DNA from: Apostichopus japonicus
Lineage: Eukaryota > Echinodermata > Holothuroidea > Aspidochirotida > Stichopodidae
NCBI RefSeq assembly: GCF_037975245.1
Contig: NC_092563.1
Coordinates: forward strand, 22,970,960 to 23,034,959
DNA length: 64,000 bases
Direction of reading: 5' to 3'
The notes under the pieces are model-generated. The model was not told the DNA's origin and did not search any database. It worked only from the letters and a program-made list of their open reading frames with translations. Below, piece after piece: positions 39,852 to 56,075 of the stretch (positions are counted from its first letter, which is position 1; every line of letters starts with the position of its first letter). The translations under genes and the position numbers were made by a program.

Positions 39852-39898
39852 ATTCTACCAGGGAGTTGTTATGTTCCATAACAACTCCCTGATTCTAC
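39852..39898. mobile_element. 33-bp palindrome flanked by a 7-bp direct repeat
   Basis: Bases 39859-39891 form a perfect hairpin: CAGGGAGTTGTTATG, loop TTC, then its exact complement. ATTCTAC lies immediately on both sides (39852-39858 and 39892-39898). A shorter relative with its own 7-bp direct repeat is at 56034-56075. See the first finding. Confidence 0.75.
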
Positions 39899-42245: not shown

Positions 42246-42401
42246 AATATATGAAGGAAGGAACAAAAGAACGTTCGAACAGACGTGTACAGCACATAAC
42301 ACGAAAGCAACATTTTCATTCAACCTTTTTTCAACAGTTCATCTATATCGTATATTCCTTTCGCTTACACGTACACTGATATCAACTGATCATATATACG
42401 A

Positions 42402-43469
42402 ATGGATAATTTAGCTTTAGAATTGGAGGCTCCTACACCAAATGTGAAAGATGGAACGAACACAGAGAATCCCAGCCGACCCGCCGAAGATGATGTTGAC
42501 ATTGGCCGTGAGAAGAAGTTCCTTGGTCACGAAGACATTCCTGCTGAAGACAAAAGACTTACAATCTGGTTAAAAAGGTTGATCCCATCTCGAGGGATGC
42601 TGGTGGCCGTCTTCTTTACCTGTGTCAATGTGTCTATTGAACTGTCGACACCACAAGTCCATCCACATCTAGTGCTAGCATTGTATCCAAATGTCATCAT
42701 GGCTCTTTCATTGATTTGCATAATTGTCACGAGAGCCAAGGTAGTGTACAATATAAAACAGTACCTTTTTCTCGTAGTCTCTGGTGGAGCTTATGCCACT
42801 GGTGCAACGTTTGTTACATTATCCATCAGCAGAATACCGGTTGGGGACGCAGTCGCCATTTTGAATTGCATGCCAATTTTTGGTGGCATTTTTGGTTGGA
42901 TTCTGTTGAGGCAGTCGTTACGGTTACTCGATCTTGTCTTTACAATATTATGCATTGCAGGAGTCGTTTTGATTGCACGGCCCTCTTTCATATTTCCAGC
43001 ATCTGTTCAAAATGACGAAGTAGATGCAATTGGTGTCTTATTGGCCATAGGAGCGGCTTGCTTCATTGGATTTTCCATCACTGCCGGTAGAAAGCTCCAA
43101 GAAATGAGAATAAATGCACTGTGTATATTATTTGTCAATGCTTTCTTCATATTTTTTATCAATGCTATAATATGCACGGTAATGGATGTATGGAGCGCGC
43201 CCAGTCCTTCATATTATTGGGGTTTATCTTTAGCACCTGGGTTGTTCTCATTTCTTGCTCAGATGTGTGTGTTGTTCGCTGTTAAAATGGAACGTGCTGT
43301 CATGGTTACAATCATTTTGACTTTAGGAATAGTTTTCACTTTTATCATGCAAATATTTATTATAAAGATAATTCCTCATTGGTATTCAGCGATAGGATCT
43401 TTCTGTATTTTACTGTCGTGTATTGGAATGTCTGTCCGGAAAGTAAACGAGGAAGAAGTAGAAAGTTAA
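42402..43469 (+). CDS. SLC35G-like multispanning transporter, tandem copy 1
   Basis: An intact 355-residue one-exon frame; human SLC35G1 is about 365. A hydrophilic acidic N-terminus of about 60 residues is followed by about ten hydrophobic segments in two EamA/DMT halves. Family marks: GDAVAILNCMPIFGGIFGW, then LDLVFTILCIAGVVLIARP and the end IPHWYSAIGSFCILLSCIGM, which align with matching blocks of SLC35G1. The start agrees with MDN/MDH starts of the other copies. TM1 is shorter by four residues (MLVAVFFTCVNVSIEL against MLVALLAAILVSVLDVSLKL in copy 2). The substrate is unknown: the drug/metabolite transporter superfamily carries nucleotide sugars and other solutes, and SLC35G1 has been linked to calcium-store regulation and citrate transport. 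About 90 percent alike to copy 2 in the core. Expression cannot be judged. Confidence 0.88.
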   Translation: MDNLALELEAPTPNVKDGTNTENPSRPAEDDVDIGREKKFLGHEDIPAEDKRLTIWLKRLIPSRGMLVAVFFTCVNVSIELSTPQVHPHLVLALYPNVIMALSLICIIVTRAKVVYNIKQYLFLVVSGGAYATGATFVTLSISRIPVGDAVAILNCMPIFGGIFGWILLRQSLRLLDLVFTILCIAGVVLIARPSFIFPASVQNDEVDAIGVLLAIGAACFIGFSITAGRKLQEMRINALCILFVNAFFIFFINAIICTVMDVWSAPSPSYYWGLSLAPGLFSFLAQMCVLFAVKMERAVMVTIILTLGIVFTFIMQIFIIKIIPHWYSAIGSFCILLSCIGMSVRKVNEEEVES

Positions 43470-47296: not shown

Positions 47297-47824
47297 GGTC
47301 GAGTTCTGGTTATACCATAACCAGTAGCTGAAATAAACAACCTCGTATCTAACAAAGTTATAAGATTGCAGCAGTAAAAGAATACAAATAGTGTTCTATA
47401 TTGGAAAAGCAAAAGGCTATGAAATGATTGCTAATTTTGTTCACGTACGCTGATGAAAGTGCGTGATAGTTATATAGTTATATATTGATTTTACGGCTTA
47501 TACGATCTACCCGTTACTGTTAACTCTCTTAAGCATAACAAGATAAAAGTCAACTCTCATTTATCATATCTACATTCCAGATTTGCGTATAGCTTTGTAT
47601 TCCCAGACCCGCATGATTTAATCAGATCAGTGGACTTTTTCGTTATAATTTTGTCATGTAACTATAGTCAGACAACAAAAAGTCAGAAATGCTTGTCGTC
47701 TCAGTCCATGTGGAATATCAACAGACGTATTTAGCAAGTTTCACGAAAGCAAAATTTCCATCAGTTCCGATAAACCGTTTTGTCTTTTCGCTTGTGTATA
47801 CACTGACATTAAGTGATCGTAAGA
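47297..47824 (+). promoter_or_regulatory. Conserved leader/5' flank of SLC35G copy 2 (module C)
   Basis: Homologous to orphan modules A and B upstream of copy 1. The last part, tcttttcgcttgtgtatac then actgacattaagtgatcg, is also recognisable just before copies 1 and 3. Retention across copies suggests the 5' UTR or promoter was duplicated with the genes; no specific element can be named. Confidence 0.5.
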
Positions 47825-48904
47825 ATGGATCATCTAGCCGTAGAAATGGGGGCTCATACACCAAGTGTGAAGGATGGCACTAACACAGAGGGTCGCAGCC
47901 GACCCACCGAAGATGATATTGACATTGGTCATGAGAAGGAGCTCCCTGATCACGAAGACATTCCTGCTGAAAACAATTGTCTTTCATCATTGTCGCAAAA
48001 GTTGATCCCAACTCGAGGGATGCTGGTGGCTCTTCTAGCGGCCATCTTGGTTTCCGTCCTCGATGTTTCTCTTAAACTGTCGACATCGCAAGTCAATCCA
48101 CATCTAGTGTTAGCATTGTATCCAAATGTCATCATGGCTCTTTCAATGATTTGCATAATTGTCACGAGAGCTAGGATACTGTACAATATAAAACAGTACC
48201 TTTTTCTCGTAGTCTCTGGTGGAGCTTATGCCACTGGTGCAACATTTGTTACATTATCCATCAGTAGATTACCGGTTGGAGACGCAGTCGCCATTTTGAA
48301 TTGCATGCCAATTTTTGGTGGCATTTTTGGTTGGATTCTATTGAAGCAGTCGTTACGGTTACTCGATCTACTGTTTATTATATTGTGCATTGCAGGAGTC
48401 GTTTTGATTGCACGGCCGTCATTCATATTCCCAGCATCTGTTCAAAATGACGGAATAGATGCAATCGGAGTATTGTTTGCCATAGGAGCGGCTTGCTTCA
48501 TTGGATTTTCCATCACTGCCGGTAGAAAGCTCCAAGAAACGGGAATAAATTCACTATGTATACTTTTTGTCAATGCTTTCTTCATGTTTTTTATCAATGC
48601 TATAATATGCACGGTAATGGATAAATGGAGTGCGCCCAGTTCTTCATATTATTGGGGTTTATCTTTAGCACCTGGGTTTTTCTCATTTTTTGCTCAGATG
48701 TGTTTGTTGTTGGCTGTTAAAATGGAACGTGCTGTCATGGTTACGACCATTTTGACTTTAGAAATACTTTTTACGTTTGTCATGCAGATATTAATCATTA
48801 ACATCATACCCCATTGGTATTCAGCGATAGGATCTTTCTGTATTCTTCTGTCGTGTATCGGAATATCTACACGGAAAGTAAACGAGGAAGGAGTTGCCAG
48901 TTAA
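47825..48904 (+). CDS. SLC35G-like multispanning transporter, tandem copy 2
   Basis: 359 residues from the ATG at 47825, chosen because MDHLAVEMGAHTPSVKDGTN lines up with the start of copy 1; the in-frame codon upstream at 47813 is GTG. An acidic N-terminus (EDDIDIGHEKELPDHEDIPA), then about ten transmembrane segments in two EamA halves. The core GDAVAILNCMPIFGGIFGW and tail IIPHWYSAIGSFCILLSCIG are shared with copies 1 and 3. TM1 is full length. It probably acts in an internal or plasma membrane as a small-solute transporter; the substrate cannot be inferred. One exon, same strand as the other copies, about 4.4 kb after copy 1. Confidence 0.9.
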   Translation: MDHLAVEMGAHTPSVKDGTNTEGRSRPTEDDIDIGHEKELPDHEDIPAENNCLSSLSQKLIPTRGMLVALLAAILVSVLDVSLKLSTSQVNPHLVLALYPNVIMALSMICIIVTRARILYNIKQYLFLVVSGGAYATGATFVTLSISRLPVGDAVAILNCMPIFGGIFGWILLKQSLRLLDLLFIILCIAGVVLIARPSFIFPASVQNDGIDAIGVLFAIGAACFIGFSITAGRKLQETGINSLCILFVNAFFMFFINAIICTVMDKWSAPSSSYYWGLSLAPGFFSFFAQMCLLLAVKMERAVMVTTILTLEILFTFVMQILIINIIPHWYSAIGSFCILLSCIGISTRKVNEEGVAS

Positions 48905-52406: not shown

Positions 52407-53250
52407 CCGAATTTGGTCCACTGTGGGCAACCATAAAAGTTTGCCGCTGAAGACGTATATCAAAACAGGACGAGAACGGAAACAAAGCACAAAACAAACG
52501 TATGTGAAAACCTTGACGGGTTGTACTTGACTCTCCTGTATTCTGTTCTTCTCTCGACATATAAATTCATCGCACAGTTGGATGCACTTATCCAGCTATT
52601 CCTTGCACGGAAATCCTACTAGTTCATTCATAAACAAAATAGTCTAACCTTCAAATGGCAGTCTTTTTTTTTTAGTTGTTACGATAAGATGGCATTCTAT
52701 CTCATAATCATGCCACCATGTATGCTGGAAAAGCCTCATGCTTGACAGCGACGAGTATTCACTATACACAGCGACATGTGTGTACACAGGTCAAAGTGCA
52801 TGGGTTTATGTCTATATTTATAGTGTCTTTATGGAATCCACATTATGAGCTAGAATACTCCTTAATATCGTACTCATCATGCAGCATATACCCTCACAAT
52901 TTGAAGTATGGCATGGTGTTCATATATATACAACCAGTGATCAGATGAGTGACCTCTTCTGTACATGTGCGGAATTCTACCAAAGCATTCCACTAAATCA
53001 TATTATCACATGCACTGGATCACATCAGCTCATCTGAAATGAAATGTAACTTCAACAGGCAACATAATTCTTCAGGTTAAATTTCGTACAATTGCAAACT
53101 TAATAAAGCGTATGTAGATACTGATGTAGTCTGCTGCATTAGCATGGGATTGTTATCTTGAAGACTCTCGGCTTAATAGGCAATTCATCAGCTTAGAAAA
53201 TCGTGTATATTTTGACTTGTGTATACGGCCACCTATACTGATCTTTAAGA
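52407..53250. other. 5' flank of SLC35G copy 3
   Basis: No exon recognised. The last 100 bp (gttatcttgaagactctcgg, then cttgtgtatacggcc) is a diverged leader of the SLC35G type; part of it recurs before the pseudogene near 57515-57560. Confidence 0.45.
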
Positions 53251-54330
53251 ATGGATAATCCAACTGTGGAATTGGAGGACCATACCACATCCACGAAATG
53301 TGCAAGGGCCGTGTGTGATCCCGACCGACCAAACGCAGATGATATCGATAGTGGTCATGGCGGGGAACTCCCTGGTCATGAAGACAGCTCCACGAAAAAC
53401 AAAAGACTTTCGACCATGTTGAGGAAATTCACCCCATCTCGAGGGATGATGGTGGCATTTCTTTCGGCTGTCTTGTTTTCGTGTGTGGATGTTTCCATCG
53501 AGATTTCGACCCATGAAGTTCATCCAAACATTGTTTTAACTTTGTATCCAAACGTCATCATGCTTTTCTCATTGATTGGTATAATTTTCGTCAAAGTGGA
53601 AGTACTATACGACGAGAAACAGTACCTTTTTCTCTTCGTTTCTGCTGGATTTTACGCCGCTGGAATAACCTGTCTTGCCTTGGCCATCAGTAAAATACCC
53701 GTTGGGGACGCAGTCGCCATTTTGAATTGTATGCCAATTTTCGGTGGTATTTTTGGTTGGATTCTATTGAAGCAGTCGCTACGGTTACTTGATCTTTTAT
53801 TTACTATATTATGCATTGCAGGAGTTGTATTAATTGCAAGGCCTTCATTCATTTTTCCAGCATCGAGTCAAAACGACGAATTCGATTCATATGGTTTATT
53901 GTTTGCGATAGGAGCAGCTTGTTTCATTGGATTTGCCATCACTGCCGGTAGAAAGCTTCAAGAAATGGGAATACATGTTCTGTGTATATTATTTGCCAAT
54001 GCTTTGTTAACTTTTCTGCTCAATGCCATAATATGCTCTATATTGGGTGTATGGAGTGCACCTAGTCCATCATATTATTGGGCTATATCTTTGGCACCTG
54101 GAGTGTTCGATTTTTTTGCTCAGATATGTGTGTTTTTGGCAGTCAAAATGGAAAGAGCTGTCATGGTTACAATCATTTTGACTTCAGAAATAGTTTTTAC
54201 ATTTATCATGCAGATATTCATCATTAAGATAATACCCCATTGGTATTCAGCGATAGGATCTTTCTGTATTCTTCTGTCGTGTATCGGAATGTCTATACGG
54301 AAAGAAGGCGAGGAAGTAGTTGCAGGCTAA
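53251..54330 (+). CDS. SLC35G-like multispanning transporter, tandem copy 3
   Basis: An intact 359-residue one-exon frame beginning MDNPTVELEDHTTSTKCARA. The same layout as copies 1 and 2: acidic cytosolic N-terminus, then two EamA halves. It is the most diverged copy in the first 140 residues (FSCVDVSIEISTHEVHPNIV, FVKVEVLYDEKQ) but nearly identical in the GDAVAILNCMPIFGGIFGW block and the last 40 residues. A run of about 58 identical bases with copy 2 (54231-54289) points to recent exchange. A transporter of the DMT superfamily; substrate unknown. Divergence limited to the first half may mean altered specificity. Confidence 0.9.
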   Translation: MDNPTVELEDHTTSTKCARAVCDPDRPNADDIDSGHGGELPGHEDSSTKNKRLSTMLRKFTPSRGMMVAFLSAVLFSCVDVSIEISTHEVHPNIVLTLYPNVIMLFSLIGIIFVKVEVLYDEKQYLFLFVSAGFYAAGITCLALAISKIPVGDAVAILNCMPIFGGIFGWILLKQSLRLLDLLFTILCIAGVVLIARPSFIFPASSQNDEFDSYGLLFAIGAACFIGFAITAGRKLQEMGIHVLCILFANALLTFLLNAIICSILGVWSAPSPSYYWAISLAPGVFDFFAQICVFLAVKMERAVMVTIILTSEIVFTFIMQIFIIKIIPHWYSAIGSFCILLSCIGMSIRKEGEEVVAG

Positions 54331-56033: not shown

Positions 56034-56075
56034 GTTGGATCAGGGAGTTGTTCCATAACAACACCCTGGTTGGAT
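56034..56075. mobile_element. 28-bp palindrome flanked by a 7-bp direct repeat
   Basis: 56041-56068 is a shortened version of the hairpin at 39859-39891, missing ATGTT at the hinge and with one T to A change in the right arm. GTTGGAT lies directly on both sides (56034-56040 and 56069-56075). A different flank sequence from the first copy shows an independent insertion. Confidence 0.75.

Follow-up and report, generated by a model that had tools for sequence, protein, structure and literature searches.

Short palindromic hairpins in the genome of Apostichopus japonicus as very probable natural excision footprints of a P-superfamily DNA transposon

Two flanked hairpins within the window

The stretch of DNA analysed herein (64,000 nt, hereafter the window) contains two short palindromes, each positioned exactly between two copies of a 7 bp direct repeat. 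The first, at 39859–39891, is a 33 bp hairpin with 15 bp arms around a 3 nt loop; it is preceded by ATTCTAC at 39852–39858 and followed by a second copy of this 7-mer at 39892–39898. When set against the parent ends described below, it reads as an excision scar comprising 15 bases of one transposon end and 18 bases of the other. The second, at 56041–56068, is a 28 bp relative with a single substitution, located in its right arm, and resides between copies of GTTGGAT at 56034–56040 and 56069–56075. Its form is that predicted for a scar in which a full end is joined at the TT of the other end's positions 11–12. The duplications were read directly from the window sequence, and none of these features is assigned to a strand. 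Both arrangements, including their positions, agree with the original prediction for this locus.

Within the window, the 12-base arm alone is not enriched (6 matches with up to two mismatches, compared to 5.1 expected), and the evidence for the signal is the palindrome, the duplication and the genome-wide count rather than arm frequency. A search of the window against Rfam returned 0 matches; an NCBIfam search likewise gave 0. With regard to neighbouring features, a row of three similar open frames of approximately 360 aa each is found on the forward strand (42390–43469, 47813–48904 and 53242–54330), and these apparently represent a tandem-duplicated gene for a putative membrane transporter.

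Genome-wide census and target-site duplications

The genome containing the window (671.6 Mb) was searched with two hairpin patterns. The first, consisting of the 12 bp arms CAGGGAGTTGTT and AACAACTCCCTG with 0–20 bases between them, and thereby admitting scars of up to 44 bp, matches at 728 places, with 0 matches for the backward control. The second, with 9 bp arms and 0–30 bases between them (scars of up to 48 bp), matches at 1,981 places, with 1 for the control, although this larger figure overstates the number of independent events because some scars are copies borne by repeats.

Target-site duplications were assessed in 50 listed examples of the 728, all of which were fetched; removal of three with duplicate flanks left 47 sites. 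Duplications of 7 bp are exact in 28 of these, and carry one mismatch in 12, two in 4, three in 2 and four in 1. Pairing left and right flanks across different sites, as a control, produces 0.14 % exact and 1.9 % with no more than one mismatch. Other lengths fail in the same sample, with 8 bp duplications exact in 1 site and 6 bp duplications in 0. No 7-mer recurs amongst the 28 exact duplications, and the original proposal of separate insertion events with 7 bp duplications is upheld. In these, positions 2 and 6 are occupied by T and A, respectively, in 88 % (both strands counted), and the target of the 7 bp insertions is palindromic, like that of P-superfamily elements. The genome search and table of flanking 7-mers suggested alongside the original prediction thus show the duplication retained, with at most one mismatch, at 40 of 47 sites. 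The two outcomes named there as adverse, namely that most copies would lack 7 bp repeats or that all would lie inside one larger repeat, do not describe this main sample, in which the 50 hairpins of the 12 bp arm class also separate into 45 flank clusters.

On both counts the 25–27 bp class is weaker. Fifty listed examples of the 1,981 include 26 scars of this class, of which 21 lie in 20 fetched loci. These loci form 11 flank clusters, and 10 of them, or half, are copies of one scar-bearing repeat; the 7 bp duplication is exact in only 9 of the 21 scars, and has no more than one mismatch in 12. One 25 bp scar, with the duplication ATCTCAG, is located within an interspersed repeat. When its flanks were joined around one ATCTCAG 7-mer, the scar was absent at 40 of 40 scored places, these being the best 40 of 1,282 candidates; scar-free copies of the scar-bearing repeat exist, and this selection says nothing of their share.

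Two forms of secondary variation were observed amongst the scars. A single scar-carrying repeat family includes eight loci that differ in their right 7-mers: in L145, L151, L154 and L155 the right 7-mer is the reverse complement of the left, and the inner palindrome is more perfect, when compared to L146, L150, L153 and L157. This change resembles a quasi-palindrome (hairpin-templated) correction. Separately, L144 (G000 C1:3254298-3254356) is a tandem pair of scars sharing one 7-mer between them, and L130, from the second family described below, is a tandem pair sharing one 8 bp unit; both appear as if an element had inserted beside an older scar, at the same target.

An origin of each hairpin by replication slippage, or as a chance inverted repeat, is next to impossible in light of these data. 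Hairpin-templated change may occur secondarily, as the four altered right 7-mers illustrate, but a fixed arm sequence at 728 places with a control of 0, exact 7 bp duplications at 28 of 47 sites and the existence of empty sites refute slippage or chance as the general origin. Of the earlier suggestion that the hairpins are made by replication or repair, the repair option comes close, in that the scars are best read as end joins.

The parent element

A search for ends with interiors unlike those of the common hairpins (CAGGGAGTTGTTATGGAAWK) identified 71 places, amongst which inverted pairs are separated by 4.5 to 13 kb. Four such pairs, retrieved either in full or at their two termini, are elements with 33 bp inverted ends, CAGGGAGTTGTTATGGAATGGAGTTSTGTCTTC; two of the four show a single mismatch. 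The longer element anticipated from the window, sharing its ends with the hairpins, exists in the form of P-superfamily transposons of these sizes. Each of the four elements read at both ends is flanked by an exact 7 bp duplication (GTTTAAC, GGTAATG, GTCTGAC and CTGAAAC), and in all four the inverted ends start with CA, features which accord with the 7 or 8 bp duplications of the P superfamily.

The elements on C3 and C17 harbour an open transposase exon of 628 aa, of which two full-length, open copies occur among the matches listed, with 99–100 % identity. This exon matches the TNP-like RNase H model of Pfam (PF21787, 1.8e-29), Tnp_P_element (PF12017, 2.1e-5) and the solved P transposase structure 6p5a (1.4e-9). 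By its predicted P-type RNase H domain, the parent can be classed as a P-superfamily DNA transposon, with a transposase whose activity is predicted. For the GTP-binding domain model PF21788, no hit was listed in the C3 or C17 element; a six-frame reading of L163 displays exon pieces that look P-like by eye. An N-terminal THAP domain is typical of P and THAP9. The 628 aa exon has no THAP hit, and a RAG1_imp_bd module is found there instead.

Surviving 33-base ends are present at 20 places (up to three mismatches), three of which (L065, L110 and L112) are deletion products. Both L065 and L110 retain one long and one short end within intact 7 bp duplications, an asymmetry that would be anticipated if gap repair had stopped part-way and end joining had followed.

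Eight P transposase places were also searched for ends of the scar family, and no parent was found; one chance-like match with 3 mismatches occurs at L054. Ends with 8 bp duplications were recognised in four of the eight, and L047, L050, L051 and L054 were not delimited; the absence of a parent is explained by the delimitable examples belonging to other P families. A cluster of P transposase matches lies at G000 C16:5188063-6079690, with 14 matches listed within 0.9 Mb, all on the same strand.

Similarly, among 20 fetched of the 23 places with G at position 19, no parent was found. By eye, 17 of these are loci in which an end is followed by other DNA, and the remaining three are a variant of the hairpin, a copy of the scar-bearing repeat and L065. 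In the 17 (all of L055–L074 other than L055, L057 and L065) the first 18 end bases pass directly into other DNA; another end or scar is located near those of L058 and L059, and L061 and L062 possess common flanks. The same arrangement is seen in L109, L111, L113–L115, L117, L120 and L121. These 18-base remnants, retrieved with a pattern that itself required 18 bases, are probably joins made after the other tail and its flank were lost.

Anatomy of the scars

Comparison of the hairpins with the 33 bp parent end reveals how they are composed. Amongst the 50 listed from the 728, 43 are exactly a prefix of the end followed by an inverted prefix; of the 7 that are not exact joins, all except one are accommodated by a single mismatch. 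None of these 49 fitted joins needs more than 18 bases of either end, and so 49 of 50, with one mismatch allowed, have the composition of an excision footprint, with no more than the length of a 3′ tail from each end between the duplications. Under exact matching, 18 bases are needed by only 2 of the 50 scars and by the window copy at 39859–39891; the tail length is thus 17 or 18, with the shorter value sufficient to account for most of these products.

The looser sample (50 listed of 1,981) displays a similar limit. The longer end measures 18 bases in 24 scars, 19 in one and 17 or fewer in 25, with the single 19-base case explained by a C-to-T change of the 28 bp form. The gap in this pattern admits ends of up to 39 bases, and the real parent end runs to 33. 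Letters are left over in 15 of the 50 joins. In the remaining 35, the overlap is 2 bases in 17, 1 base in 11 and 0 in 7, compared to a random blunt-join null of 19, 22 and 59 %, respectively; at least 5 of the 17 joins with two-base overlaps are repeat-borne copies, which inflates that group. Annealing of the tip of an 18-base tail to a T or TT of the other predicts products of 25, 26, 28, 29 and 31 bp, and 23 of the 50 scars are the predicted 25, 26, 28 and 29 bp products, with 5 of the ten 25 bp examples being repeat-borne.

These compositions bear on whether the hairpin is itself a mobile unit, an ultra-short MITE mobilised in trans by a P-type transposase. The 28 bp form has 1,059 matches within 3 mismatches (both strands added) and the hairpin sites have separate duplications, both as such a unit would produce; despite this, the reading is highly improbable. 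Hairpin interiors vary, from 21 to 34 bp, and are largely joins predicted from the 33 bp end, with forms of 25, 26, 28, 29, 30, 33 and 34 bp each found with their own duplications. Furthermore, P-type cleavage at a distance of 17 bases from each terminus would be expected to consume a 28 bp unit, and asymmetric products exist (such as L065 and L110). Rather than the constant interior of a MITE, the interiors are varied end joins, and the body-less transposed unit envisaged in the original prediction is hence not upheld.

A second alternative is that the scars are internal-deletion products of gap repair, in which synthesis-dependent copying (SDSA) stopped early, as opposed to direct end joining. 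L065, L110 and L112 retain at least 57 bases of one end, as gap repair would leave, and these three were encountered by other means than the looser pattern, which is capped at 39 bases per end and 48 overall and would therefore overlook longer products. Template copying nevertheless provides no reason for the longer end to be limited to 18 bases in 49 of the 50 scars of the looser sample, and this explanation for the scars is accordingly considered very improbable.

Other P families in the same genome

A second P family, with ends CAGAGCCGTAT, has left 212 scars genome-wide (control 0). Its full-length elements, L052 and L053, are flanked by 8 bp duplications. In a sample of 22 scars from 20 loci (18 loci holding the first 20 listed scars, and two chosen for their form), an exact 8 bp duplication is present in 15 and an exact 7 bp duplication in 0. 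The sequenced end alone fully explains 34 of 50 listed scars, with a longer end of 18 bases in 14 and none beyond this; upon addition of a guessed end variant, itself built from the scars, the longer end is 18 in 21 of 50. For a third P family (L048, with ends CATAGAGCTTA), the scar count is 0, demonstrating that scarring is not universal.

A RAG1-type module and a PHD-finger partner gene

The parent transposase (L105:2876-4759:+; G000 C3:19629175-19631058) carries by profile match an N-terminal zinc module of RAG1 type. Scanned alone, the N-terminal part of the 628 aa exon scores 23.6 bits against RAG1_imp_bd (PF12560; cut-off 23.3), whilst the full exon scores 18.3 bits, below this cut-off. 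Two relatives from the same genome (L164:254-2134:+ and L165:181-2088:-), 36–37 % identical, match PF12560 at 2.5e-9 and 5.3e-10, and PF21787 at 2.9e-27 and 2e-26. The module would appear to occupy the place held by THAP in P and THAP9. It is possible that it instead represents convergent use of a zf-AD-like finger, for which the score is 16.8 bits and below cut-off.

The second gene of the parent runs in the opposite, convergent direction, and starts with a PHD finger (L106:4268-4681:- and L108:4375-4788:-). The L106 finger matches the ING1-like structure 1wes at 6e-5, and both L106 and L108 are below cut-off for the Pfam PHD models. For an open exon of 365 aa located further along, none of the Pfam matches is convincing, and the exons scanned yielded no kelch domain. 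Passages of PMC7204232 describe the genes of RAG-like transposons as convergent, and a PHD as present in most invertebrate RAG2L; an element resembling the RAG1 N-terminus is reported from Aplysia in part of PMC8355894. A literature search covering few subscription journals brought up no recognisable earlier description of a P transposase with a RAG1-type module.

Origin and significance of the scars

Taken together, each hairpin is read, with a probability of about 95 %, as the footprint that a P-superfamily DNA transposon left upon its excision. The finding is real, and is explained as a set of natural P-superfamily footprints that are unusual in number and in duplication length. In the mechanism proposed, a whole element with 33 bp inverted ends inserts and generates a 7 bp duplication, as observed in the parents. 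Judging from the scars, the transposase would then cut at the 3′ ends of the element and approximately 17–18 bases inside it on the other strand, such that each chromosome end would keep a 3′ tail with 17–18 bases of the element. As both tails would carry the same sequence, they could not pair fully; end joining would instead proceed via 0–2 bases of microhomology or a short filler, a pathway suggested by the junctions seen, with polymerase theta as the likely agent. The expected product would be a pair of duplications enclosing at most 18 bases of one end and then, in inverted orientation, at most 18 bases of the other.

Excision scars have usually been studied in laboratory flies. The present example is a wild genome in which one and the same break, its ends being known, is represented by hundreds to almost 2,000 products. 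From these, the geometry of the cut, the use of microhomology and the filler are measurable with no need of an experiment, and two families, with 7 and 8 bp duplications, can be compared side by side. Relative to the 20 surviving ends, scars are in excess by approximately 30-fold (728 × 45/50 clusters) to a hundredfold (1,981), suggesting that this cut-and-paste family has mostly been lost by excision. For annotators, there is a warning that scar hairpins resemble mini-MITEs and are not. Finally, a P-type transposase that carries a RAG1-type module is relevant to the origin of the RAG1 N-terminal region.

A broader scenario can be offered as a tentative and rather doubtful one. In this, the scars would have been cut by a P transposase bearing a RAG1-type module and accompanied by a convergent PHD gene, in the layout of RAG1/RAG2; this P lineage and the RAG lineage may have exchanged the N-terminal region of RAG1 and perhaps also the PHD gene; the scars, with up to 1,981 places, would form a natural record, perhaps the largest, of inherited joinings of one defined break; and the family would have been removed by end joining and not by gap copying.

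Comparison with known systems

The closest counterpart to these scars is found with the Drosophila P element. Passages of PMC7776569 state that one of the strands is cut by P transposase at a point 17 bases within the element, which generates 17 nt 3′ tails. Parts of PMC2895639 describe junctions in which portions of the two tails, connected through microhomology or filler, are enclosed by the duplications. As with the scars presented here, these hold up to 17 bases of each inverted end. They are, however, laboratory junctions at one locus (68 in the spn-A set), with 8 bp duplications and 17 nt tails, whereas the scars herein are natural, occur at up to 1,981 places and have 7 bp duplications (8 bp in family 2) and tails of up to 18 bases. 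According to the same passages, flies initially favour copying back (SDSA), and Drosophila P additionally yields products of long microhomology in which the ends are removed. In the literature searched, which covered few subscription journals, no previous account of P scars collected across a genome was recognised.

Galileo, a P-superfamily element of Drosophila, is similar to the parent family in its 7 bp duplications and palindromic target (GTANTAC), and differs in having long inverted ends, compared to 33 bp here; no scar archive for Galileo was found in the passages of PMC4168063 from which this description is drawn. MITEs are likewise short and numerous, with inverted ends and duplications, but the hairpins possess no body and, as far as their sequences indicate, probably no mobility of their own, the interior being a repair junction.

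With respect to RAG1/RAG2-like transposons, as characterised in portions of PMC7204232 and PMC8355894, the parent shares what appear to be a RAG1-type N-terminal zinc module and a convergent PHD-finger gene. It cannot itself be classed as a RAG-like transposon, given its P-type core, 7 bp duplications and the lack of kelch in the exons scanned. Alongside these shared features, the parent is set apart from RAG-like transposons by a P-type catalytic part, by different ends, and by duplications of 7 rather than 5 bp.
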